Position numbers and translations under genes: made by a program. A stretch of DNA of 31,044 bases. Origin: a virus. The stretch is taken from positions 1-31,044 of IMG/VR virus record IMGVR_UViG_3300032092_000153; one strand, given 5' to 3'. This document shows positions 2,773-28,334 of this stretch, piece by piece. The first letter of the stretch is position 1. Each line of letters opens with the position of its first letter. The notes below the pieces were generated by a model. It was not told the DNA's origin. It searched no databases and saw nothing but the letters and a program-made list of their open reading frames with translations.

Positions 2773-3079
2773 TGCACAAAGGCAACTCGACAACTGGATG
2801 TACAGCAGACCCAAAAGAAAGGACACGATGAAAGATGAAGAACGAGAGTACAGATACGAAGAACGCGATGGGGGGTTTCTCCTCAAGTGTTGGCATGACG
2901 GTCGGGAGACTACGACCAGAGGCCACTATCACGAGCGCCCAGCGTGGCTTGAGCCAATCCTCGCTGTGGCAAAGATCAACGGGTCGGCGAAGCGGGTTAA
3001 GGAACCTCCGCCAGATTTTATTTGCTGGTTTCGCACCACTGCATCCGGCGCACTCACCGAGTTTATTGAACTGGAATGA
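2726..3079 (+). CDS. Hypothetical phage protein, 117 aa
   Basis: The ATG at 2726 has a strong GGGGAG box at proper spacing but overlaps the upstream gene by 47 nt. A second in-frame ATG at 2828, with AGGA upstream, would give an 83-aa product starting MKDEEREYRYEE, and I cannot rule it out. The central part (YRYEERDGGFLLKCWHDG) looks like antiparallel strands. No family recognised. A second frame open through this gene only becomes a real gene after 3081. Confidence 0.6.
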   Translation: MAKTMTIRVTGWGMLDAQRQLDNWMYSRPKRKDTMKDEEREYRYEERDGGFLLKCWHDGRETTTRGHYHERPAWLEPILAVAKINGSAKRVKEPPPDFICWFRTTASGALTEFIELE

Positions 3080-3080
3080 C

Positions 3081-3263
3081 ATGACATACGACAACCTGAC
3101 CGACCAAGAACTTTTACGCCATGTTGACGGCATGACGGGGCTTACCAAAGTCCTTGCTGAACGTCTTGAGATGCGCTTGAGAGACATCGAGGAACTTGAG
3201 CATGCGCTTGGCAAGCGACTGCCCAAGGACGACAACAACCCCGCGCAGATGCGCTTGTTCTAA
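3081..3263 (+). CDS. Small helical hypothetical protein, 60 aa
   Basis: The ATG lies one base after the stop of the upstream gene. The frame stays open upstream of it, but that part is a shadow of the preceding gene. The protein is charged and helical (DQELLRHVDG, LAERLEMRLRDIEELEHALG), likely a helical hairpin or short coiled coil, and ends in RLF. The ribosome binding site is weak, suggesting coupling to the gene above. Function unknown. Confidence 0.6.
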   Translation: MTYDNLTDQELLRHVDGMTGLTKVLAERLEMRLRDIEELEHALGKRLPKDDNNPAQMRLF

Positions 3264-15820: not shown

Positions 15821-16031
15821 CCCGCGTGTCATAGTCGTCCACGGCATCGAGTACTTTGTGTACTGGGACAAGCTGGATGTGGGGGCATCGTTCTTCTTGC
15901 CCACCACCGCAACCCCCAGGCAGGTAAAGCTTGCCCTGGGCCCCGCCCTGCGGGCACTTGACTATGAGGTGGAGCTACGCGCCCGTTGTGAATACGGGCG
16001 GTATGGGGTGCGGGTCTGGCGCGTTACTTAG
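15789..16031 (+). CDS. Conserved small phage protein (YGVRVWR C-terminus), 80 aa
   Basis: Starts within the primase gene (32-nt overlap) with AGGA 5 nt ahead. It has IEYFVYWDKLDVGASFFLP then a helix (RQVKLALGPALRAL) and ends EYGRYGVRVWRVT. The combination of an SFFxP strand, a central helix and a YGxRVWR end is found in many small phage proteins of unknown role, probably nucleic acid-binding. It is the last + strand gene, with its final 8 bp overlapping the end of the - strand ejection gene. Confidence 0.7.
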   Translation: MKPHSLTPQSDPRVIVVHGIEYFVYWDKLDVGASFFLPTTATPRQVKLALGPALRALDYEVELRARCEYGRYGVRVWRVT

Positions 16032-19000
16032 GGTACTGCTTGCGAATCTCAGCCTTGGCTTCGCGCAACCAGCGGGTCAAGTCCACCTCGATCTTGCGGA
16101 CTTCCTCAAGTTCCCGGGCCCGGTCTTCCTTGGACATCTCCTGGGCCCCATCAGGGCTGTTGAGGAACTTGCGGTAGGCCCGCGTTTTCTCAAGCTGCTC
16201 CAGGGTGGCATTGATGTACGGGTTGAGTGCCAGGGCTTGCTCGTGCTCAACCGCAAACTTCTCTGCCGCTGCCATGTCGGTCTTGGCCAAGTTGTTGAGG
16301 GTATTCTGCAATTTCCCAACGCGCTCACGCTCCTCGTAGAACTCAGTGATACGCCGTGTGCCCACGGGGTCAATCATGTAGTTGCTGAGCAGGGCCCACT
16401 TGTGCAGGGGGCGGTCCACCCGGGTCGGGTTGAGCAAGCTGTCGGTTGTTGCAGTAACCAGCGCCGCCGTGGAGCCAAAGTACCCGCGCAAAGCGTTGTC
16501 CAGCATGATGGGGGACACTTCTGCCCCCACAGTGTTCTTGGCAAACTCAGCCAGTTGGATGGCCAACTCGCTTGTGCCAGCAGATCGGCGTTGGCTTGCC
16601 AGCATCTGCTTTTGGTAGGTACCTTCCAGTTCGCGCCCGGTGAGGAACGAGTGGTTGGTGAATGCCTCCAACAAGGGTTTGACTGCCTGCGGCACAGGAG
16701 TTACCCGGCCAACGTACTGCTCAAATATGTACGTCATACCAGTCCGCATGGCTTCAAAGGCCTCCTGCTCCTCAGGTGTACCCTGGCGCTTGTAGTACTC
16801 CACAACACGCTCAGGTATGACCTTGAAGATCGCGCCCAGTTCGCCCGGCACAGATATCTTCTGGCCTCCGACAAACCAGTTGCTGTCGCGGGTACGCAGG
16901 TCGGCCTCGGCGTATTCTTCGTCCTCCTCGTCTTTACCCAGGGCATACATGGCGCTGAGTGCGGTGACCACTGCCGCCCGGTTCCAAAACAGTTTGCGGG
17001 CCTCGGCCCGACCCACTGAGGAACTTGAGTCTGCACCTGATGCGGCGCGGTACAGCACGTCCATACCCTGCACGTAGGCGTTAAAGAACGGGATGGTGGT
17101 GACCATGGCCCCAACGAAGTCGCTGGCCCCACGGCGGCGGAAGTTGATGAACTCACGGGCCCGGGTTTGCGCCAACAGCGTGTCCCCGCCTTCTTTAAGG
17201 GTCTGGTCGTAGATGGCCTTGCGCACCGCCAAGTCAGATGCTTGGGTGAACTCGTTGAGCCTGGACAAAAGTTCTTTGACAAACCCGCGTGGCTTGTAGC
17301 CCAACTCAGTCAGCAAAGATGCGGCAGGTTTACCTTGCACAAAGTCGTAAGCGCCTGCAATACCCATGGCCCCCAGTTCTTTTTCAATCGGGTGCTTGAT
17401 GCCGCGTATTGCCGCAAACGCCAGCTTGGGAAAGTTGGTCAGCGACATGTACAGCAGCGCCCCCGGGCTCTTGACCCCCGAGGTAACGATCGCACGCTGA
17501 ATATCGTCTGTCAACTGCTTGAGCGCAAACGGAGGCATTGCCGTCACGGTGGTACGCAATACATTGGAGAAGGCCCCCAGGTTCTGCAACCATGCCGCCT
17601 TGGGCGCGTTGAGGTCTTTGAACGCCAGCACGTCGTACTTGCTTGGCAGTTCCCAGTAGTTGAGTTCCCCATCGACGTATGCGCTGGCAGTGTTTGCCTT
17701 GCCCTGTGGGCTGCGATGCAGGAACTTGGCTTGCCCCATGCCCTCCAGGGTGCGCAACGTCTGGATGCGGGCATCGTTGTTGATCGTTTGGCCGACCATC
17801 CAACCCAGGGTGTTCATGTAGTTGTCGAACACGTTGCCAACCGGACGAGACAAGGAGCCGCGAAGCTCAGGGTCTTTGGTAAGCATTAGGGGAGAACGCC
17901 CCGTGGTGCGCTTGGACTTGCTGAACTTCTCTGCAAAATCGTCAATGCGGTCGAACGGCACATACCCAACCACGTCCTTCCATTTCTCACCTGTTTCGGG
18001 GGAAAGCCGTCCCACGGCAACCAAGTTGTCCACCATGGCAATACGCGCTTCGTCCATGAGTTTGTTCATGGCCTTGAATGCTGGGTCTGCGTTGTACTCG
18101 GCCACAAGCGCGGCCCTGGTCTGCGGGTCCATGTGGCTGGGGAAGTCTGGGTCTGCTTTGAGCAGTTGGTCCAAACGCACTGCCTCCAGGACGCGACTGG
18201 CGTACTGCGTGGCTTTCTCCTGCGAGTAGCCGTTGCGCTTGCCCCAGTCACCAATCATTTTGTAGATATCCGCAGGTGGGCGTACCCCGGATACATCGCT
18301 CACAACCCACAAACCTGTGATCGGGTCTTTCACAAAGCCGCCGCGCTGCAAGTAGGACAGCAGCATCTTGGTGTAGTCCTGTGCCTGCCGGTACAGCCCC
18401 ATGGGGTTGAGTTTGCCAAGCGAGTCGCGCACTGCGCCGTTGAACCGCTGGGAGATGCGGCTCTCAATGGTGGCAGCAATGTCTGCTGTCTGCGTGCGGA
18501 ATTTGGTACCCAGGTTTGGCTCGACACCTTGCTGTTTAAACCCGTTGATAAGGTTGGTCAGCCCAGACCGTTCCGGTCCGTCCAGCGGGCCCATGGCATC
18601 CACCAAGGCTTCGGTTCCGGGAGCCAGGGAGAACTGTTTACCTGATGCTTTGGCGGCCTCGCCCAACTCAGCACCTTTTAACCCAGTGAGGGCCCCGCCA
18701 ATGCGTAGCAGTTCGGACAGCGCCGTGTCTGCCTTGGCAGACAACCCCAAAATGTCACGGATAAGGGTGACAAACTTGTCCCACATGTTGGAGCCTTTGT
18801 ACGGCACCGTCTCCATGTAGTCCTGCATATCCCGGTTGGTCATGCCCCACGCCAACACCTCGTCAACATCGCGCATGTAGCGGGTACGCAGTAACTTCTC
18901 TGTGGCATTCAACGTTTCGCCCCGCGCGTGCTTGGCATCCACATGATTGAATATGGCCTGGGCCAAGTCGTACATATCGGACACATGTTTGCCTAAAGCG

Positions 19001-21849
19001 GTGTTAGCGGCGGAACGTAAATTACCAACTCGCAATGAACTCATTGTGGCGGCGTGCACAAGCTCATGCAAGATGACTTCTGGAGTAACGCCGTTGTATT
19101 TTCCTTCTGGGTCAGTATTCGGGTGGTTGACTTCAATTTTTATTTCGGACGCCAGAGTCTTCCCTCTGTCTTGGCGCATCGACGTGCGCCCTCTGGCCCC
19201 GTTTGAAAACGTGCCGGGGATTGGGTTACCGGCGGGACGAACCGTGAAGTTGCCAACCTTTACTCCAACCTTTTGCAATTCCTGCAAGGTGTCCGCGACG
19301 CGCTGAGCAATGATTCGTTGATCTGCATCGGGCAGATTAGCTGCTGCCCACTCAGAAACGTCGATCAGGTTTTTACCGTCAATGTCTTTGACCATAGACA
19401 ACGCAGTCCTGATGCGCTTTGGTTCTTCTTTGGGCGGTGTAGGCGCTTCTTTGCGCTCACGCAAGTCCAACTCGCCTTGCCGCTCGTCCTTCTCTGGGGC
19501 GGGCGTGGTCTCTTCTTCGGCGGTGATCTCAGTATCCCGCTCGGCTTGTTTCTTTCTGCCGTAGGCAGCTTCTTCTGCCTTGGTCATGGGGAACAGCATG
19601 CCCTGCGGGCCACGGGTGATATCAGTCTCCCCCTCCTCCATACCAAACTCAGACGCGCCGATCGGCTCTCTCAGGCGCTCGGGCAGTTCACGGGTAGGCG
19701 GCGCTGTGCGGCGGGGCTCTGCGGTTGTTTGTGGGGCTGGGCGACTTGGCTTCCCGGCTTCCTCCATGGCAATGCGAATGCGCTCAGCCTCTGCTTTGCG
19801 CGCCGCTTCCTCTGCATCTGTTTCAGTCAGTGCACCGGGCTGTGTTCCTTGAGGTTCAGTTCTCGGGCTAACAGGTTGTCCAGTAGGAGCCAGTCTGCCG
19901 CCGACAGGTGCCGCAGGTTTTCTGGGGGGTCGGGGAGCGCGAGGTGGATTTGCGGGTGATCCGGCGGTAGGCTCACCAGAAACTCCCACGCTTGGCTCAC
20001 TTGTTCCGGGCTCAACGACTGGCTGAGTTGCAGGTTTCGGGCGATTTGGGGTACGTACACGGGGGGCCTCCTCAAAAGCAGGTACATCAGTTGCAAGCAA
20101 AGTGCGCAATAAACGAGCGCGACTACCAGGACCTTGGATGAGGTCAGGTTGGCGCTTTACAAGGTCTGCAAGCTGTGACCGAGTGGTTCCCGCTACGTTT
20201 TTCATAACCCATGCTGCCGGACCGGCCTGCAATGGGATGGCCGTGAGCATGATCTCTTCGGCGGTGATAGTTGGTTCGGGCTGGCCAAACGTGGTTGGCT
20301 GTCCTTCTGGGTTGCGCCGCAACGGCAGTGTGAGTTGCTTGGGGCCTTTCTCTCGGAGGGTAGGTTCAGGGATGTCCCCCTGTGCAGGTTCTTGTGCACG
20401 GTCCGGCACCGGGGCTTCTTCTTCGGTGAACAAGTCGGTCTGCCCACGGGGCACGATGGGCGCAGTCTCTGCCAACCCAGGGAACTTCTTTCGGGCTTCT
20501 GCGTCTTCATCTCGCTGAGAACGGATTTTGTCCACCTCGTATACGCTTCGGCCTTTGAGTTGCTCGGTCAGGTCAGCGATGCGGGCCTTGACCTCCGGGG
20601 TTTTCGGCATGAGCTTTAAGCGCTCACGCTCTTTGACCAGATCAGCATACTCACGGGTGCCCTCAAGCCCCAGGTCTAACTGCTCTCCTGTGGGCTCAAC
20701 CTCCGCAGGGCGGGCGCTCTGCGGTGGGACTTCTGTTGGCTCTATGCCAGCGGCCTTGCCGCGCTCCACACCCGCAAGCTGCTCTGGGGTAAACAGTTCG
20801 CCTTGGGTGCCTGGGGGAGCGTCAGGCATGCGTGGGCCACGGTCGGCAATGGCTTGGCGTTTTGCTTCCTCGTCTAAGGCTTGCTTGGCCAGCAATTGGT
20901 CTTGAGCCTGTCCTCTGGACATTGCTCCGGTGACCCCGCCGATCGGACCACCAACGAGTGCTGCACCATAGGCATTCTCAGCGTACTCTTTGTATGCGTC
21001 ATCCCCGGTGAGCGGCAAGCCTGCCTGCCACCGTTCCAGAATGGCTTGCCCAACTTCAATGGGCATCTCTGTTGCGCCCCGCGCAACACCACGTCCTGTA
21101 GCTGCGGCCACCGAACGCTCGGCTTCCCGGACCAACTTGGCTTGCGTTTTGGCCGTCATAAGGGAGGCGTCATCGGTGATACCAAGAAGACCTTTGATAA
21201 GCCCCTTACCTAATATCAATGCTTGCCCGGCACTTTCTAACCCAGCCTGCCCAACGGCAGAAATGGCGGCTTTGCTTTGGTCGATGCTTACAGGTTCGCC
21301 GCGCTCTTGTTGCTCTGAGGCTTGGCGTTCTTGCATTGAGCCAAACATCTGGGGCAGAAGCGCCGTGGCAGCCCCAATCCCCCCGCCAACAAGCGAACCC
21401 ATGCGGCCCAGCGGCCTGCCCGCCGCAGCACCCAAACGAGCGCCGCCAGCAGCGGTTGCAAACGTACCGCCTTGTCCCGCAATTGCCTTAGGTATTTGGG
21501 AGACAACTTCTCCCGCCGCACTCAGCAGCCCTTTGTCAGCATACGCCCGCTTGACCGCTTCCAGGGAGGGGCCTTCGCCTATTTTTTCAGCTATAGCTCG
21601 ACTGCGCTCTACCCCGGCAGTGGCGGCTTCTTCGGGGGATGTAAGCGACCCAAACGCGGTACGAATTGAGGAAAGCGGCTGTTCAACGCCGCGTTGCAAC
21701 TCCCCGAAGAACGAGGATTGCTTTGGAGCCGACGGAAGGTTGGGTATTTCCGCCTGTATCAGCGCTTCCGCTTGCTCTGGGCTTAGGCCCTCAGGGATTT
21801 CAAACCGCGCTATCCGCCCATCGGGCATTTGAAATCGAGCAATTGGCAT
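16024..21849 (-). CDS. Giant virion/ejection protein with zincin and LPD38 domains, 1941 aa
   Basis: The N-terminus MPIARFQMPDGRIARFEIPEG is typical of phage internal virion proteins. Glycine-rich hydrophobic stretches at 124-170 and 205-225 could enter membranes. Residues 340-810 are a Pro/Glu-rich disordered linker with six Q-x-x-L-F/L motifs. Residues about 815-1080 contain a zincin-like peptidase: H928-E-L-V-H932 with E997 in DEVLAW as likely third ligand. The remaining 850 residues match the LPD38 polyvalent-protein type (INFRRRGASDFVG ... PFFNAYVQGMD near 1565-1600). Expected to be packaged in the virion and ejected with DNA, like T7 gp16. It is last in the - strand operon, 1 nt after the 668-aa gene. 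Confidence 0.88.
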   Translation of the reverse strand: MPIARFQMPDGRIARFEIPEGLSPEQAEALIQAEIPNLPSAPKQSSFFGELQRGVEQPLSSIRTAFGSLTSPEEAATAGVERSRAIAEKIGEGPSLEAVKRAYADKGLLSAAGEVVSQIPKAIAGQGGTFATAAGGARLGAAAGRPLGRMGSLVGGGIGAATALLPQMFGSMQERQASEQQERGEPVSIDQSKAAISAVGQAGLESAGQALILGKGLIKGLLGITDDASLMTAKTQAKLVREAERSVAAATGRGVARGATEMPIEVGQAILERWQAGLPLTGDDAYKEYAENAYGAALVGGPIGGVTGAMSRGQAQDQLLAKQALDEEAKRQAIADRGPRMPDAPPGTQGELFTPEQLAGVERGKAAGIEPTEVPPQSARPAEVEPTGEQLDLGLEGTREYADLVKERERLKLMPKTPEVKARIADLTEQLKGRSVYEVDKIRSQRDEDAEARKKFPGLAETAPIVPRGQTDLFTEEEAPVPDRAQEPAQGDIPEPTLREKGPKQLTLPLRRNPEGQPTTFGQPEPTITAEEIMLTAIPLQAGPAAWVMKNVAGTTRSQLADLVKRQPDLIQGPGSRARLLRTLLATDVPAFEEAPRVRTPNRPKPATQPVVEPGTSEPSVGVSGEPTAGSPANPPRAPRPPRKPAAPVGGRLAPTGQPVSPRTEPQGTQPGALTETDAEEAARKAEAERIRIAMEEAGKPSRPAPQTTAEPRRTAPPTRELPERLREPIGASEFGMEEGETDITRGPQGMLFPMTKAEEAAYGRKKQAERDTEITAEEETTPAPEKDERQGELDLRERKEAPTPPKEEPKRIRTALSMVKDIDGKNLIDVSEWAAANLPDADQRIIAQRVADTLQELQKVGVKVGNFTVRPAGNPIPGTFSNGARGRTSMRQDRGKTLASEIKIEVNHPNTDPEGKYNGVTPEVILHELVHAATMSSLRVGNLRSAANTALGKHVSDMYDLAQAIFNHVDAKHARGETLNATEKLLRTRYMRDVDEVLAWGMTNRDMQDYMETVPYKGSNMWDKFVTLIRDILGLSAKADTALSELLRIGGALTGLKGAELGEAAKASGKQFSLAPGTEALVDAMGPLDGPERSGLTNLINGFKQQGVEPNLGTKFRTQTADIAATIESRISQRFNGAVRDSLGKLNPMGLYRQAQDYTKMLLSYLQRGGFVKDPITGLWVVSDVSGVRPPADIYKMIGDWGKRNGYSQEKATQYASRVLEAVRLDQLLKADPDFPSHMDPQTRAALVAEYNADPAFKAMNKLMDEARIAMVDNLVAVGRLSPETGEKWKDVVGYVPFDRIDDFAEKFSKSKRTTGRSPLMLTKDPELRGSLSRPVGNVFDNYMNTLGWMVGQTINNDARIQTLRTLEGMGQAKFLHRSPQGKANTASAYVDGELNYWELPSKYDVLAFKDLNAPKAAWLQNLGAFSNVLRTTVTAMPPFALKQLTDDIQRAIVTSGVKSPGALLYMSLTNFPKLAFAAIRGIKHPIEKELGAMGIAGAYDFVQGKPAASLLTELGYKPRGFVKELLSRLNEFTQASDLAVRKAIYDQTLKEGGDTLLAQTRAREFINFRRRGASDFVGAMVTTIPFFNAYVQGMDVLYRAASGADSSSSVGRAEARKLFWNRAAVVTALSAMYALGKDEEDEEYAEADLRTRDSNWFVGGQKISVPGELGAIFKVIPERVVEYYKRQGTPEEQEAFEAMRTGMTYIFEQYVGRVTPVPQAVKPLLEAFTNHSFLTGRELEGTYQKQMLASQRRSAGTSELAIQLAEFAKNTVGAEVSPIMLDNALRGYFGSTAALVTATTDSLLNPTRVDRPLHKWALLSNYMIDPVGTRRITEFYEERERVGKLQNTLNNLAKTDMAAAEKFAVEHEQALALNPYINATLEQLEKTRAYRKFLNSPDGAQEMSKEDRARELEEVRKIEVDLTRWLREAKAEIRKQYPK

Positions 21850-21850
21850 G

Positions 21851-23857
21851 TTATTTCTCGTATCCTAAGAATTTTGCGCCGCCGGGGCTTCCTGCGCCGG
21901 GGGTCGTAGGCATTGTATATCCGCCTGCTGCGGCAAGGGCTTTACGAATGTCGTTCAGTTGAGGCTGCAACGCAGCGCGTTGTTTCTTCCCGGCGGGGGT
22001 TAGCGTGTCGTACTTGTTCATCTCAGTCAGAAGGTTGGACTCCAGCGCTTTGAGGCTATCCACTTGCAGCCGCTTATCTGCCCGGGTGTTGGCTTCCCTG
22101 CTGGTGATTGCCTGAAGCTGCGCTGCGAAGCGTTGGCCCGCTGCCGTTTGGTCCGCTGCCGCTGCCGTAGCTGCCCCAGTGGATACGCTCCCAGCCAAGG
22201 TGGCTTGGCCTTTTCGGTAATCCATCATCAGCTTGTCGCGCTCAGCCAGCTTCTGGTCGTGCTCTTTGATGCGGCCATTGGCCAGATCAAACTTGGCACC
22301 CATGGCCAGTCGGTTCATTTCTTTGAGCTTGGTATCCTGCTCATCGCGCATCTTGTTGTATGCCTCGTCGTCCGATTGGAACTTCTGACGCAACTCACGC
22401 GATGCTTTGCTGCCACGGGCCATGCCAGCACCGTAGCTGCTGCCAGTCAGCCCAGAGGAGAACTCCATGAGTTCGTCCCAAGCGCGGCTTTGTTTAGTTT
22501 TCTCACGCGCTGCATCCTCTTTGGTACGGCGGGCTTGAATCTCCGCCATGTCTTTTTGCGCAAGTTCCCAGGGAGCTTCCCCAGGCTTGACGCCTGCCTG
22601 ACGCAGCTTGGCTTCTTGTTCCTGTTGATACGCTCCAAAGTCTTTAGTCACAGCGGGAAGCGTTGGAGCCTCAGACAAATATTGCCGAGCAAACGCAACC
22701 GCCGGGTCTTTGTTGTAGGTATCCAAGGCACCGGGACCAGCAGTAGGGCCAGCAGCGGGGCCAGCAGCGGGGCCAGCGGTAGGCGGACGTCCGGGACCCC
22801 CACTGGGCCCAGCGGCAGGCGGACGTTGCTGCTGTTGCTGGAGCATCCCAGGCAATCCAGGCTGTGGCGCATCAGTACTTATTCCTGCTGCTCTTAGCGC
22901 CATTGCAGGGGGCATACCTTGCTTAATTAGCCGTGCGTATTCAGCTTGCTTTGCGCTTTCGCCAGCACTTAGGTTAGAAGGCGGGCGCTCGACGGGAACG
23001 GGAACAGCTTTTGTGCTTTCTTTTTTGGGAGAAAACAGACTGGTAATAAGCCGCTCAACCATGTTTTGGTCAGGGGTGTCTCTACCAACAGCGTCGGGCT
23101 TTTCCGCTGCTTTAAGCGTTGCCACCTCCTCTGGAGATGTGCCATATAACTCGCCTGCAATTGATGCCGCTGCTAACGGCCCCGCTGCCTTGCGCAGTAC
23201 TCCGCTTGTGGCATTAGCGCCCGTACCCACCGCATTGGCAGCAGCATTTACGCCTCTGATGCCTCTCTCCGTCATGGTGGGGGCTCGGGCAGCTTTGGGT
23301 TTTGCCGGTTCGGACGGCGCAACTTCAGGGGACACAGCCCCAGCCGCTACCCGCGTGGCGCGTTGCTCGTCGGGCGACAAGTTAGCAAACTCCCTTGTGG
23401 TCATCCCGGTCTTTTCTAAATAAGCACGCAAAATGGCGTCCGCGCTGCTACCGCCAGCGTCAAAGCTCACAATGCCACCACCAGCCATGCCAAACATATC
23501 AGAGCGCACAGGCACACCCATCAAGCCGCCCGATGCGGCCATCTGAACGTCAGGCTCCGCTTGGGGCTGCATACGGGGCTCGGGGAGCATCCCAGGCAGT
23601 CCGCCGGGAGACTGTTGTCTTTGCGCTTGGACGTTAAGCGTAGCAGCCTTCTGGCGAAGCTGGTCCATCACGCTGGGCTGAGGACCTTGGGCAGCGCCTT
23701 GCGCCAACCCGTTGGCTTGCTTGCTGGCTACCTTCTCGCTCAGCGCCGCCGCAGCCGCCCAGGGAGGAACAACGCGGGGGTTCTTACCTTTAGAGTACGC
23801 ATCCAGCATAGGCTCCGGCACATACTGCAACAATTCGTCAAGATGGTCGAGATTCAT
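21851..23857 (-). CDS. Putative internal virion protein, 668 aa
   Basis: A low-complexity, Ala/Gln/Pro-rich protein. An ordered start (NLDHLDELLQYVPEPML) is followed by a Gly-rich motif MAGGGIVSF (124-132) that recurs in neighbours, a Pro/Ala/Gly repeat region (GPAAGP) at about 355-375, and a long helical, probably coiled-coil C-terminal half (about 390-640). Position between two other large virion proteins, with 9-nt and 1-nt gaps, and similar size to ejection proteins of podoviruses support an internal virion role. No enzymatic motif is seen. Confidence 0.75.
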   Translation of the reverse strand: MNLDHLDELLQYVPEPMLDAYSKGKNPRVVPPWAAAAALSEKVASKQANGLAQGAAQGPQPSVMDQLRQKAATLNVQAQRQQSPGGLPGMLPEPRMQPQAEPDVQMAASGGLMGVPVRSDMFGMAGGGIVSFDAGGSSADAILRAYLEKTGMTTREFANLSPDEQRATRVAAGAVSPEVAPSEPAKPKAARAPTMTERGIRGVNAAANAVGTGANATSGVLRKAAGPLAAASIAGELYGTSPEEVATLKAAEKPDAVGRDTPDQNMVERLITSLFSPKKESTKAVPVPVERPPSNLSAGESAKQAEYARLIKQGMPPAMALRAAGISTDAPQPGLPGMLQQQQQRPPAAGPSGGPGRPPTAGPAAGPAAGPTAGPGALDTYNKDPAVAFARQYLSEAPTLPAVTKDFGAYQQEQEAKLRQAGVKPGEAPWELAQKDMAEIQARRTKEDAAREKTKQSRAWDELMEFSSGLTGSSYGAGMARGSKASRELRQKFQSDDEAYNKMRDEQDTKLKEMNRLAMGAKFDLANGRIKEHDQKLAERDKLMMDYRKGQATLAGSVSTGAATAAAADQTAAGQRFAAQLQAITSREANTRADKRLQVDSLKALESNLLTEMNKYDTLTPAGKKQRAALQPQLNDIRKALAAAGGYTMPTTPGAGSPGGAKFLGYEK
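22746..22781 (-). repeat. 12-bp tandem repeats encoding GPAAGP
   Basis: On the + strand GGGCCAGCAGCG occurs twice in tandem, followed by a diverged third copy. They encode the G-P-A-A repeats of the 668-aa virion protein. About 30 bp further on, AGCGG[T/C]AGGCGGACGT is also duplicated, so this segment appears to be expanding by slippage or local duplication. Confidence 0.75.
22840..22858 (-). repeat. 19-bp direct repeat, copy A (LPGML motif)
   Basis: The + strand sequence GGAGCATCCCAGGCAATCC has a near-identical partner at 23584-23602 with one mismatch (G for A). Both encode G-L-P-G-M-L in the 668-aa protein, some 250 residues apart. Confidence 0.7.
23584..23602 (-). repeat. 19-bp direct repeat, copy B (LPGML motif)
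   Basis: Partner of the element at 22840-22858, 18 of 19 bases identical. It encodes GLPGML at residues 86-91 of the 668-aa protein. Recombination between the two copies would delete an in-frame segment of 744 bp. Confidence 0.7.
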
Positions 23858-23866
23858 TGTTGGTCC

Positions 23867-25981
23867 TTAATTGGTTTTAGCAGGGGGGTTAAATATCGCA
23901 TTAAACTTTGCCATAAAGTCGGCGGTGCCTGTGCTGGACTTTATCAAGTCCAATAGCGGGTTGGTATTGGCCGTATTGACCGCCGTAGAGATCGGCAGTT
24001 TGTCCAACAACCCTATCTTGTATTGCTGCATTTGCTTGTCCCAGTCGCGTTGCTTCTCCCACTCTTTCTCGTCGGCAGTGATGCCTTGCTGCTCGATGTC
24101 ACGCTGCGTGGCACCCAGATTTGCCAAGTCTTTGAGCGTATCGCGCCCGTAGGTAGCGCTGTATTGGCGTGATGCTTCGCCCGCCTTGTCGGCGTCCATG
24201 CGGCGAGTCTGGTCCGCATTAAATTGCCCCATAGCTTTGTCGTAGGCAGTTTCATACCCTTTGCCAATCAACTGAGATTGCTTGTCCAACAGGTTGCGTC
24301 GTCCTTCGGACTCCATGATGGCTTGGCGGCCACCGCCAAAAGCGCCCGCTTGGGCCAGTCGTGCATTGTCAGACAATCGAGCAATGTCCGCTGCGCGTTG
24401 TTGTTCCGCCAGTTGAGGCGAAAGCGAAGCGGTCAAGAACGGATTCATGTATTGTTTTGCGGCATTGGCGTCAAACGTACCGCCCGTAAAAGTACCTGGG
24501 GTATACCCGGTAGTGGCCAAATTGCTGGCTCCGGCAAACGCTTGGTTTTGCAAGTCAGACGCCCCGGCAGTCAGCGGCCCCTTGTACGCTTGATACGGCT
24601 GGTCAGCCAACGTTTGCGCTTTGCCCAGAGTATCAGTCACATAGTCTCCAATGTAGGGAGACAGCGTAGAGGACGTTGACGTATCGGTAGCGGTTGTGCC
24701 CCCGGCAAGGAAGTGTTGAACGCCGCCACCGCCAGAATAGCCAACGATACCGCCGGGCATGTATTTGTCCGGGTTGATCTGCCTGCCTTGCTTTTTGGTG
24801 CCGGTCCGGTCCATGCGGATGCGGTCCATCATTTGGTACAACTTCTTTGCCCCAGCGTCGCTGTTGCCGTTACCCAGATGGGAAACCACGTCCGCAGGAA
24901 TCACAAACTCCCCATGGCTCAAAGCCGCAGGTTGGTTGTTGTCGATTTGCGCAGGCAACTTGTCGGCCATGCCATCAGTAGCGCCCCGCAGGTATTGTCC
25001 TTTTGCCATGTTCAATATGCCTCCTTGGGCCATGGTGGTCACGGGCTCGGCACCAACAATATGCCCGCCCCGATCTGCTATCGGCATTGCAAAATTTCCA
25101 TTACGCCCGGCTAACTCCTCTACGGTTTTTTCTTTTCCGTATGGCGAGTTCTGCTTGTACCACTCCAACGCCTTTTCAGGAGACTCAATCAGAGAGGCTA
25201 CCCCGGATGCGCCAGTAGTTGCAGGGGCCGTAGTCCCGGTTGTAGCCGCAGCCTTAGGATTCCAAGGTGTTGCCAACGCCGTGACCCCGGCTTTGGTGTA
25301 CGGGTTTTGAGCATTCGCTGCCGTGGTGGGGGTGTACCCACTCAAGATGCCTTTGGCTTCGTCCCTAGCCGCAGTGTTTGCAGCATCCAGTCCGGCTTGG
25401 TCTTTTGCATACCGTGAACTGGTGAAGTATTGGCGACCTGCGGCTCCTGGGCGGCGGTTGGGGTCGTCATAGGTAATGGCTGCTTTGGATAAGGCGTAGG
25501 TTGGAATCTTCCCGGCATACCCGCCAGTGGTCTTTTGCTGAGTCACGCCCGTTGCAGAAGCCAACGCCCCAGCAAGACCGCCTAATGCACTCCAGTTAAC
25601 CTTTCCATCAGCCCCGGTAAATGCGGTCTTGAGAGAATCTATGGTGCTTTTTGCAAGCCCTTTGGCTGCGGCCCAAGTACCAAATTGCGCTTGGTCGTCG
25701 ATAGTTGCCCCGGGACGGAGGGTTTCAACCCGGGCGCGATAGGTATCCCAATCTTCGTTGGTGACATCGCCGTAGTCTCCAGCAGTATCCCCGGCGTTAC
25801 CAGTTTCTGTGAGGTCCACTCCGCCAGTGTCGGTGTCGCCCGCGCCCGTGCCGATTTCCCCAAGGTCTACTCCGCCGGTAAAAGTGGTATCTCCAATCAG
25901 GTCAAAGTTGTCACTGTCGTTTAGGTATTCGCCAGTGCTGTCGTCAAACCACGCTCCTAATTCGTCTTGCACCAAAGCCAT
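23867..25981 (-). CDS. Putative internal virion protein with DGEFVIPADVVS module, 704 aa
   Basis: The first 70 residues are acidic and repetitive (GGVDLGEIGTG, GGVDLTETGNAG). The middle has MAQGGI (317-322), then a module at 336-390 with DGMADKLPAQI, HGEFVIPADVVSHLGNG and AKKLYQMMDRIR, and MPGGIVGYSGGGG (408-420). This module recurs in large structural proteins of many environmental phages. The C-terminal third is helical with AGAFGGGRQAIMESEGRRNL, another recurrent virion pattern. No enzyme site is seen. Spacing of 1 nt from the gene before and 9 nt to the next supports one late operon. Confidence 0.8.
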   Translation of the reverse strand: MALVQDELGAWFDDSTGEYLNDSDNFDLIGDTTFTGGVDLGEIGTGAGDTDTGGVDLTETGNAGDTAGDYGDVTNEDWDTYRARVETLRPGATIDDQAQFGTWAAAKGLAKSTIDSLKTAFTGADGKVNWSALGGLAGALASATGVTQQKTTGGYAGKIPTYALSKAAITYDDPNRRPGAAGRQYFTSSRYAKDQAGLDAANTAARDEAKGILSGYTPTTAANAQNPYTKAGVTALATPWNPKAAATTGTTAPATTGASGVASLIESPEKALEWYKQNSPYGKEKTVEELAGRNGNFAMPIADRGGHIVGAEPVTTMAQGGILNMAKGQYLRGATDGMADKLPAQIDNNQPAALSHGEFVIPADVVSHLGNGNSDAGAKKLYQMMDRIRMDRTGTKKQGRQINPDKYMPGGIVGYSGGGGVQHFLAGGTTATDTSTSSTLSPYIGDYVTDTLGKAQTLADQPYQAYKGPLTAGASDLQNQAFAGASNLATTGYTPGTFTGGTFDANAAKQYMNPFLTASLSPQLAEQQRAADIARLSDNARLAQAGAFGGGRQAIMESEGRRNLLDKQSQLIGKGYETAYDKAMGQFNADQTRRMDADKAGEASRQYSATYGRDTLKDLANLGATQRDIEQQGITADEKEWEKQRDWDKQMQQYKIGLLDKLPISTAVNTANTNPLLDLIKSSTGTADFMAKFNAIFNPPAKTN

Positions 25982-25982
25982 A

Positions 25983-28334
25983 TCAATTCCTTCTCAGAAT
26001 ATCTAACAGTTCATCTATTGACCCGCCTTGGGCCATTTTAGATGCGGATTTTTGTTTTGCAAACCGGTCTACATTAAACTCGCCGGTAAAGTCAAACGGC
26101 TCTGACGGGGTGTTATCCACCACCGGAGCGGGGGCTGGAGCCTGCTGCCCGCCCATGGACGCCAACAACGCAAAAAGCGCCATATTGTTTGGGGCAGCGG
26201 GCGTAGTTGTAACCGGTTTAGTGGTCGTGGGCTTTTTGGCCGGGGGTTTGATATTTGGCAATTTGCCACCCGGAAGGCCCGGAAGCTTTAAATTCCCGGT
26301 AGTTGTATCCGTTAACCCGGTCCAAGATGTGTCTGTTTTTTCCGTAGACCCAACAAGATTTCCGTCGCCGTCAAGTGTTAATGTAGACCCGTCGTCGCTT
26401 GTATAGGTGTAAGTGCCAGACGTGGGGTCGTATTTATAGGCTCCCATGCCCGTGGAGTTTTCGTTGTAGAAGTCGGTGTTAGTGTTGACGTTACCTAAAT
26501 CCTGGTTGCCGCCCCCAGTCAAATCCTTGCCAAACTCCGCAACGCGCTTAGCCTGCTCGGCCTCTTCGTAAGCCTCATATTCTTCAATGCTGTCAAATTT
26601 TGGCAGTCCCACGATCTCCCGCATCTGATTGATTTGCCCCAAGAAATCGCCAGATTTGCCTTTTTCCATTGCCTGTGCAAGCCGCTGGTCTTCAGCGGGT
26701 TTGGTTTGCGTGGCGTCTGTGCCCGTAACGGTGGTATCCGTTTCGCCCGTAGCGGTGTCTGTGCCCGTAGCGGTGTCTGTGCCCGTAGCGGTGTCCGTGC
26801 CCGTAGCGGTGTCCGTGCCCGTAGCGGTGTCCGTGCCCGTCCCGCCTGTTAGGGTGTCATCGCCGCCTTCAGCGGGGTTAGCTTGCGCTATTTTCCACGC
26901 GTTGTATTCGTCTTGTGTATACGGATTTAGGCCGATGTCTTTTCGGAGCAAATTGATAGCCTCAAACTCATTTCCCGCTTTTAGATTTTCAATTGCCGAA
27001 GATAGATTGTTCTCTTTTTTTACGGGCTCCGTGCCCGTGGTGGTGTCTGTGCCCCCAACAACTTTGGTCAGATCAGTGGTATCAAAGTCATCGTGCAGCC
27101 CGGCATTGGTAAGGTCGTCAACAACAGTTGTATCTTTGGTTGCGTCAATTTTTTCCTGGTCAAGTTTGGCCTTGTAGTCATCAGCGTTAAGCACTCCAAC
27201 TCTTTTATATTCTTTCCACGTTTCGGGGTCTGTAACCCCTTGGTTAAACGCACTGGCCAAGTCAGTGTAACTAGCCCAGCCATTTGCTCGAGCACTTATA
27301 TCGTCGGGCAGAACATCAAGTTTGTATCGGAGTGAGTTTACAGTTTCAGCAAGTTTTGACGCCGCAGCGTCTCTTGCAGCTTGTTCCTCTGGGGAGTTAA
27401 TGGGCGAACTCATTAACTTCTGAAGCTGGTCGTTATTGGTTTTGTATTCCTCTTCCGTCTTGTTTAGCAACGAGCGGTCTTCGGCAGTGCCCGTGGAATA
27501 CACTTTGTCGTTGACATAAACCTGTTGTTTTAGGTCCTGATACCCAAGGCTCTTTGCCTGTAACTCAGCCTCTTTAAAAACTTTATCAAACCCCTGGTTA
27601 AGCAGTTGTGAGGCCGCGCTTTGGTCTTTGTTAAACGCGACTTTGAATGCGTTGACTGCTGTGCTCTGCTCACCTTTGGATAACGTGTCCCACCCAGGAA
27701 TCTGGGCCATAGCCAAATTCAAACCGTCGTTGGTAATTGCGCTGGTAATAATTTTTGCGCTGTTGATGTCGGTTGTGCCGTTTTGAGCGGCAGTAACAAA
27801 CATCCCCCGCGCAGAGTTTGCTGCAACCCGTGCCGCCATAGCCGAATCAGTGGCTCCTCTGACACCCGTGCCCGCAAACGTTTCCCCCGTGGTTATATCC
27901 GTTTGCGGGCCGAGGCCCGCTACGTTACTTGCAAGCCAATCCCCGCCCGCTTGAATGGCGTAGGCTTTTACGCCTTCCGTCAACCATTCTTCCGGGCTGC
28001 TGTTTTTACTGGTTACTTTGGCTACCCCGCTTATATAGGGAATAAGCTGTGGCTGGCCTGCGGCAATAGCGACGGCAATTGCCGCCCATTTAACTGGGTC
28101 TTTCCCTATGTCGGCAACAATATTTTTGGTAACTTTGCCCGCCGGGGTATCTGGGTTAAATACGTTTAACGCCCCTAAATCTTTGACTGCTTTCCCTACC
28201 GCAGAATCAGAGTTCAGCGGGTTAGCTGCGCCAAGGCCAGGGAGCCACGTTGTCTGGCTGTTATGAAATGGGTTGTCAACGCCTGGGATAAGCGACCCAC
28301 CTTCCTGCCCCGTTAATTGCTTCCAAAAGCTCAT
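25983..28334 (-). CDS. Putative internal virion protein with GTDTAT repeats, 783 aa
   Basis: The N-terminal third has a hydrophobic helix (WAAIAVAIAAGQPQLIPYISG, around 83-104), followed by long helical regions and acidic linkers. Five copies of G-T-D-T-A-T lie near residues 500-530. After about 640 the chain is Thr/Pro-rich (KKPTTTKPVTTTPAAP) with MALFALLASMGG, and ends MAQGGSIDELLDILRRN, a Gly-rich motif shared with its neighbours. It resembles the head of the ejection-protein cluster in podoviruses; no enzyme motif is found. It starts 1 nt after the stop of the 112-aa tail protein. Confidence 0.75.
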   Translation of the reverse strand: MSFWKQLTGQEGGSLIPGVDNPFHNSQTTWLPGLGAANPLNSDSAVGKAVKDLGALNVFNPDTPAGKVTKNIVADIGKDPVKWAAIAVAIAAGQPQLIPYISGVAKVTSKNSSPEEWLTEGVKAYAIQAGGDWLASNVAGLGPQTDITTGETFAGTGVRGATDSAMAARVAANSARGMFVTAAQNGTTDINSAKIITSAITNDGLNLAMAQIPGWDTLSKGEQSTAVNAFKVAFNKDQSAASQLLNQGFDKVFKEAELQAKSLGYQDLKQQVYVNDKVYSTGTAEDRSLLNKTEEEYKTNNDQLQKLMSSPINSPEEQAARDAAASKLAETVNSLRYKLDVLPDDISARANGWASYTDLASAFNQGVTDPETWKEYKRVGVLNADDYKAKLDQEKIDATKDTTVVDDLTNAGLHDDFDTTDLTKVVGGTDTTTGTEPVKKENNLSSAIENLKAGNEFEAINLLRKDIGLNPYTQDEYNAWKIAQANPAEGGDDTLTGGTGTDTATGTDTATGTDTATGTDTATGTDTATGETDTTVTGTDATQTKPAEDQRLAQAMEKGKSGDFLGQINQMREIVGLPKFDSIEEYEAYEEAEQAKRVAEFGKDLTGGGNQDLGNVNTNTDFYNENSTGMGAYKYDPTSGTYTYTSDDGSTLTLDGDGNLVGSTEKTDTSWTGLTDTTTGNLKLPGLPGGKLPNIKPPAKKPTTTKPVTTTPAAPNNMALFALLASMGGQQAPAPAPVVDNTPSEPFDFTGEFNVDRFAKQKSASKMAQGGSIDELLDILRRN
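26745..26834 (-). repeat. Five 18-bp tandem repeats (GTDTAT)
   Basis: Five consecutive copies of GCCCGTAGCGGTGTCTGT on the + strand, the last three having C for T near the end, plus a partial sixth at 26835-26840 and a degenerate copy upstream. They encode G-T-D-T-A-T in the 783-aa virion protein. The graded substitutions show recent stepwise duplication. Confidence 0.95.

Follow-up and report, generated by a model that had tools for sequence, protein, structure and literature searches.

The 31,044-nucleotide viral stretch IMGVR_UViG_3300032092_000153, analyzed here over its full length and hereafter called the window, encodes on its minus strand a giant protein of 1941 amino acids (aa) whose linker carries six short motifs resembling the clamp-binding motifs (CBMs) of bacterial proteins. 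On the best reading of its sequence, this is a polyvalent virion protein of the LPD38 class equipped with a multivalent tether or decoy for the host sliding clamp (beta clamp, DnaN). The clamp interpretation is supported by retention of the motifs in homologs, by shuffle tests, by substitutions that follow CBM rules, and by a second CBM-bearing protein. We consider it fairly probable that the six motifs are real beta-clamp-binding motifs and that the linker of the ejected protein engages host DnaN multivalently. The features on which this argument turns are as follows.

16024..21849, minus strand: giant LPD38 polyvalent / probable ejection protein, 1941 aa (open reading frame (ORF), LPD38 Pfam match, homologs)
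19450..20862, minus strand: Pro/Glu/Ala-rich linker with the motif array, residues 330-800 (composition, AlphaFold model, diverged gapped alignment)
20791..20805, minus strand: clamp-binding-like motif 1, QGELF, residues 349-353
20665..20682, minus strand: clamp-binding-like motif 2, QLDLGL, residues 390-395
20428..20442, minus strand: clamp-binding-like motif 3, QTDLF, residues 470-474
20320..20337, minus strand: clamp-binding-like motif 4, QLTLPL, residues 505-510
19591..19605, minus strand: clamp-binding-like motif 5, QGMLF, residues 749-753
19462..19479, minus strand: clamp-binding-like motif 6, QGELDL, residues 791-796

The motif array and its conservation

An earlier note on this DNA had placed six clamp-binding-like motifs in the 1941-aa protein, and each of them is found there once, together spanning exactly positions 19462-20805. 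The patterns QxxLF and QxxLxL match six times in residues 330-800, whereas shuffled linkers gave on average 0.13 and at most three matches, and none of 20,000 shuffles reached six, which bears out the note's view that the motifs are not a product of chance. When the anchor glutamine of the pattern was swapped for any other residue, zero or one match was found in the same linker. All six motifs conform to the core Q-x-x-[L/M]-[F] or Q-x-x-[L/M]-x-[F/L], and two of them (QLDLGL and QLTLPL) conform to the strict form with L, I, V, A, or M at position 2, a count reached by 59 of the 20,000 shuffles. The description of the motif-bearing region as a linker is likewise supported by its Pro/Glu/Ala-rich composition and many alignment gaps. 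In the AlphaFold model, each motif lies within a stretch with a predicted local distance difference test (pLDDT) score below 50, and short helical mini-domains (near residues 396-455, 530-585, and 757-777) lie between these stretches. The low pLDDT is weak evidence that the motif stretches are disordered, since the alignment is shallow and the conserved C-terminal region scores low too.

Relatives were drawn from 12 viral contigs with close or moderate homologs, to which searches with the C-terminal region added 80 loci. Among those at 44-66% identity, all six sites stand out as islands in a diverged, gapped linker, in which the Q, L/M, and F/L residues are kept and the variation falls on positions 2-3, on the spacing, and on the linker itself; this is the pattern of retained Q-x-x-L-F-type motifs in a diverging linker for which the earlier note had proposed to look. 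In alignment A1, the glutamine is invariant in six of six motifs compared with one of 19 other linker glutamines (Fisher p = 4e-5). Over 46 non-redundant sequences, motif core columns retain the residue of the window in 77% of cases, whereas motif positions 2-3 do so in 36% and the remaining linker columns in 35% (Mann-Whitney p = 7e-8). The common ancestry of the sequences makes these p-values descriptive. These 46 relatives contain 189 motif matches, compared with 24 expected from block shuffles. The count starts at residue 250 and extends as far as the C-terminal region, so that it takes in a few matches of the QAGLPL, QGLMDL, and QYWMGF types that lie beyond the linker. The latter, found in some members (QAGLPL at residue 275), are not regarded as belonging to the array. 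The match rate anchored at Q is 80 per 1000 Q, compared with 0-21 when other residues serve as the anchor, and strict motifs with an aliphatic position 2 number 59 across the family, compared with 10.7 expected.

Substitution at the individual sites keeps to the core pattern. Relatives show QGALF, QGTLF, QGEMF, and QGELL at motif 1 (site 349), QLGLGL, QMDLGL, QQDLGL, and QIGLGL at motif 2 (site 390), QADLF, QMDLF, QGDLF, QGELF, QLDLF, and QVDMF at motif 3 (site 470), QYKLPL, QYRLPL, QLPLNL, and QTSLPF at motif 4 (site 505), and QAMLF, QAELF, and QGTLF at motif 5 (site 749). Motif 6 (site 791) appears as QLELDF (in L049 and L103), QAELDF, QMELDF, and QGELSF, and as the pentamer QGALF in two relatives. 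New sites, for example QLDLF, QLPLF, QVDMF, and QMQLF, occur in L055, L056, L063, and L065, with QMQLF being an additional site in L056 and QRDLF one in L055. As judged from these alignments, the gain, loss, and switching of sites between five- and six-residue forms is turnover like that of a short linear motif.

The array substitutions also obey the published rules for clamp motifs. Natural CBMs follow Q-phi-x-[L/M]-[F/L] or Q-phi-x-[L/M]-x-[F/L], with no apparent difference in affinity between pentamers and hexamers; position 3 tolerates most residues and slightly favors Asp, and Leu is best at position 2 (2024 review; PMC11139829). In the giant-protein family, position 3 is mostly D or E, and position 4 is L/M and the last position F/L, the latter two being imposed by the pattern. 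QLDLF is the strongest clamp peptide and LQLELDF the commonest phage-display binder (PMC11139829). Motif 2, QLDLGL, is nearly identical to QLVLGL of Escherichia coli Pol IV, and motif 4, QLTLPL, to QLSLPL of E. coli Hda (PMC11139829). The most frequent residue at position 2 across the family is Gly; Ala at this position weakens binding about 40-fold, and the affinity of QTSMAF is about 210 uM (PMC11139829). The Gly-rich position 2 predicts weak binding at single sites, so that strong binding is not assured, and multivalency could offset this weakness.

A small protein with a C-terminal motif and the probable target

Among the 22 non-overlapping ORFs of the window, one other match to the pattern was found, comprising the last five residues of a small protein.

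3081..3263, plus strand: small 60-aa protein with the C-terminus ...NPAQMRLF (inside the 142-aa ORF 2835-3263)

Its start is placed at window position 3081 because the homologs, which are about 60 aa long, begin at this internal Met. A clamp motif is present in the last 16 residues of 64 of 70 viral homologs, most often as QLNLF (34) or QLKLF (18), and 41 of 46 distinct tails match the pattern, compared with 2.3 expected on shuffling. QLNLF is the motif of E. coli Pol V (PMC11139829). In a longer variant of about 163 aa, the C-terminal part is unrelated, and most members again end in Q-x-x-[LM]-F, so that the motif has either been preserved or been acquired anew at this different end of the chain. 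The small protein is encoded in the window's second gene cluster, which contains replication genes, and many contigs encoding the small protein also carry the motif array in their giant protein. A tblastn search with the small protein against named phages gave no match. This family offers independent support for clamp targeting by the same phages.

The partner of the motifs is most likely the host clamp. This view follows from the lack of a DnaN-type clamp in related phage contigs: none was found in 16 of them, with T4-type clamp families left unsearched and the contigs possibly incomplete, and a phage-encoded clamp was rejected as the target on the lack of a DnaN-type clamp in 8-16 related contigs. 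Genome scans aimed at the host yielded no close prophage, and their only two matches, at 23-24% identity in Paenibacillus and Berkelbacteria contigs, are uninformative. A motif-bearing phage DNA polymerase was considered too and rejected, the window's polymerase having no match to the pattern. Separately, an AAA ATPase (phrog_1297) of the relative G001 (L110 1257-2336, minus strand) contains DQLPLFENI; this QLPLF was not counted, being kept in seven of 13 homologs and probably lying inside a folded domain.

The giant protein and its gene neighborhood

The regions that define the class of the giant protein lie downstream of the motif array.

16429-16923, minus strand: LPD38 domain, residues 1643-1807
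16330..18402, minus strand: conserved C-terminal region including LPD38, residues 1150-1840
18706..19311, minus strand: zincin-like metallopeptidase region, residues 847-1048, common to phiKMV gp37 and the N4 virion RNA polymerase family

The LPD38 domain (Pfam PF18857) is matched with E = 3.4e-24 and 86.4 bits, compared with a cut-off of 27 bits. The zincin-like region contains HELVH (residues 928-932). Its whole extent (residues 847-1048) aligns to phiKMV gp37 (E about 2e-11, about 10% of the protein), which is classed as a gp16-type ejection protein (PMC8954989). The match of residues 913-1048 to the N4 virion RNA polymerase family does not involve the polymerase module; the zincin region of the N4 protein has already been described (PMC5512222). 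The chain combines several distinct domains, including a zincin-like peptidase, as LPD38 polyvalent proteins do, and it shows both the similarity to a known ejection protein and the position among virion genes by which ejection proteins are recognized. Its gene comes after a probable virion protein match and three other large ORFs on the same strand. Taken together, the LPD38 domain, the zincin region in common with phiKMV gp37 and N4 virion RNA polymerase, and the gene order indicate that the 1941-aa protein is probably an ejected polyvalent protein.

As far as alignments reveal it, the architecture of the protein is mosaic. Residues 1150-1840 are 65-70% identical among relatives, and the N-terminal segments and residues 816-1080 around the zincin diverge strongly (18-25% identity to many relatives). 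A Foldseek search with a model of the N-terminal 1100 residues gave no significant match, and the AlphaFold model of the C-terminal region, being of low confidence, was not used. In the neighboring probable virion proteins (three ORFs of 668, 704, and 783 aa; 21851-28334, minus strand), short Met-Ala-x-Gly-Gly-type patches recur, for example MAGGGIVSFDAGG, MAQGGILNMAKG, and KMAQGGSIDELLDILRRN. The 783-aa protein (25983-28334, minus strand) also contains a run of TDTATG repeats within a Thr/Asp-rich stretch.

Mode of action, alternatives, and known systems

Polyvalent proteins are predicted to 'jump-start' replication or to disarm hosts. After ejection of the giant protein, its linker would lie in the host cytoplasm and contact DnaN rings, each a dimer with one pocket per subunit, so that motifs that are individually weak or moderate would sum by avidity. 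The host clamp would then be held at the site of phage DNA entry, and/or host polymerases and repair proteins would be competed off the clamp, and replication would be biased to the phage prior to phage gene expression; the outcome may be recruitment to phage DNA as well as competition with host polymerases. The small C-terminal CBM protein would prolong clamp engagement later. We infer DnaN binding, presence in the virion, ejection, and the direction of the effect (to recruit or to inhibit). The full sequence of events, in which an injected hook of six CBMs captures DnaN at entry and a tiny clamp-binding protein then completes a previously undescribed two-stage clamp takeover, is put forward more tentatively than multivalent binding itself.

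Several observations weigh against this reading. Position 2, at which changes cost published peptides affinity, is G or T in four of the six motifs. Motif 5 is embedded in a longer conserved block, RGPQGMLFPM, and may therefore have another role. The array is reduced to zero or one loose match in L035, L050, L064, L088, L106, and L107, and across most of the 40%-identity branch L096-L102 (with three matches in L096). It does not occur in the giant proteins of the LPD38 phages D274, Pondi, phiARM81mr, CF418P1, and HTVC034P, nor in those of KPP25, Rollin, and RHph_TM3_14A, whose homology is not established. Its lack in some relatives and in named LPD38 phages means that the array is not essential to this protein class. 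In the array-poor L035 and L050, ELDLFGNPV and ETDLFGNPV stand at the place of motif 3, with E instead of Q, possibly as a decayed clamp motif.

The alternative that survives best, although we consider it unlikely, is that the motifs bind another partner, either a virion component or a host protein with a similar hydrophobic groove, and that the resemblance to CBMs is convergent. The frequent G, Y, or Q at position 2 in place of the aliphatic residue of strict CBMs, and the longer conserved context of motif 5, would suit such a partner. The interchange of LF with LxL or LxF at single sites, the emergence in relatives of QLDLF and QLELDF, the strongest clamp peptides known, and the C-terminal QLNLF, QLKLF, or QLSLF of a separate protein in the same phages speak for the clamp instead, and the motif is missing from every other large structural ORF in the window. 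Slightly less probable still is clamp binding that is genuine but late, with the giant protein docking on replicating phage DNA in the producing cell to be packaged near the replication/packaging site, and with no action after ejection. Motif enrichment, conservation, and turnover fit this explanation equally; the gene belongs to the structural cluster and is probably expressed late, during active phage replication, and the small CBM protein is encoded in the other cluster, with replication genes. However, the three large structural-cluster neighbors have no such motif, and array-less relatives retain the C-terminal region, which makes the array dispensable for assembly in general.

A role of the motifs in proteolysis, with the polyvalent protein being split at them (for example at Q|G) by a prohead protease or its own zincin, is very improbable. 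The zincin-like region with HELVH does lie just downstream of the motifs, self-processing by zincin-like domains has been proposed for polyvalent proteins (PMC5512222), and the motifs separate folded mini-domains in the AlphaFold model. However, the position next to Q accepts many residues (among them G, L, Y, Q, A, and M), whereas the constrained residues lie three to five positions past Q and alternate between LF and LxL. The small protein, moreover, has this motif as its last residues, where cleavage would make little sense, and the zincin region is swapped among relatives, with 18-45% identity to it, in a background of persisting motifs. That the motifs are chance or structural leftovers devoid of binding function, as their lack in some relatives might suggest, is hardly credible in the face of the shuffle tests, column conservation, and turnover pattern.

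If the ejected linker does engage the host clamp, phages can seize the host replication ring by means of short peptides that arrive with the virion, and the linker, as a natural multivalent ligand of the clamp, is of interest in the design of antibacterials. The conserved array points to a specific host target, DnaN, for an uncharacterized class of giant phage proteins, and the small C-terminal CBM family is a second, simple protein bearing on the same target. Clamp motifs and polyvalent proteins are already known; the conserved array of about six motifs and the small C-terminal-motif family appear to be new. In the open literature searched, subscription papers being outside its scope, we found neither the small family nor any polyvalent or ejection protein described as carrying clamp-binding motifs, and the 2017 description of LPD38 polyvalent proteins does not mention the words clamp or DnaN (PMC5512222).

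The giant protein resembles LPD38 polyvalent proteins in having LPD38 near the C-terminus, a zincin-like domain, a mosaic architecture, and a structural neighborhood (PMC5512222), and differs from the named members checked in having the array. With phiKMV gp37 and T7 gp16-type ejection proteins and with N4 virion RNA polymerase it has in common the zincin-like region and probably delivery with the DNA, but it shows no RNA polymerase match and has a different C-terminal region. Competition through a clamp motif has a precedent in the Caulobacter toxin SocB, which binds DnaN with such a motif and thereby blocks replication (PMC9690074); SocB can serve as a model for a decoy by mechanism, although it is a cellular toxin with an antitoxin. 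Gp168 of Staphylococcus phage Twort is a phage protein that targets the host clamp via the DNA channel (PMC11139829), but it uses neither the motif pocket nor an array of CBMs. The closest likeness of the motifs themselves is to the CBMs of Pol II, Pol III alpha, Pol IV, UmuC, Hda, and MutS/MutL (PMC11139829), with Q at position 1, L/M at position 4, and F/L at position 5 or 6, in both pentamer and hexamer forms and in a putatively disordered setting. In contrast to these clamp partners, which carry one or two motifs, the giant protein has six in one chain, often with G at position 2, and their carrier is a probable virion protein.

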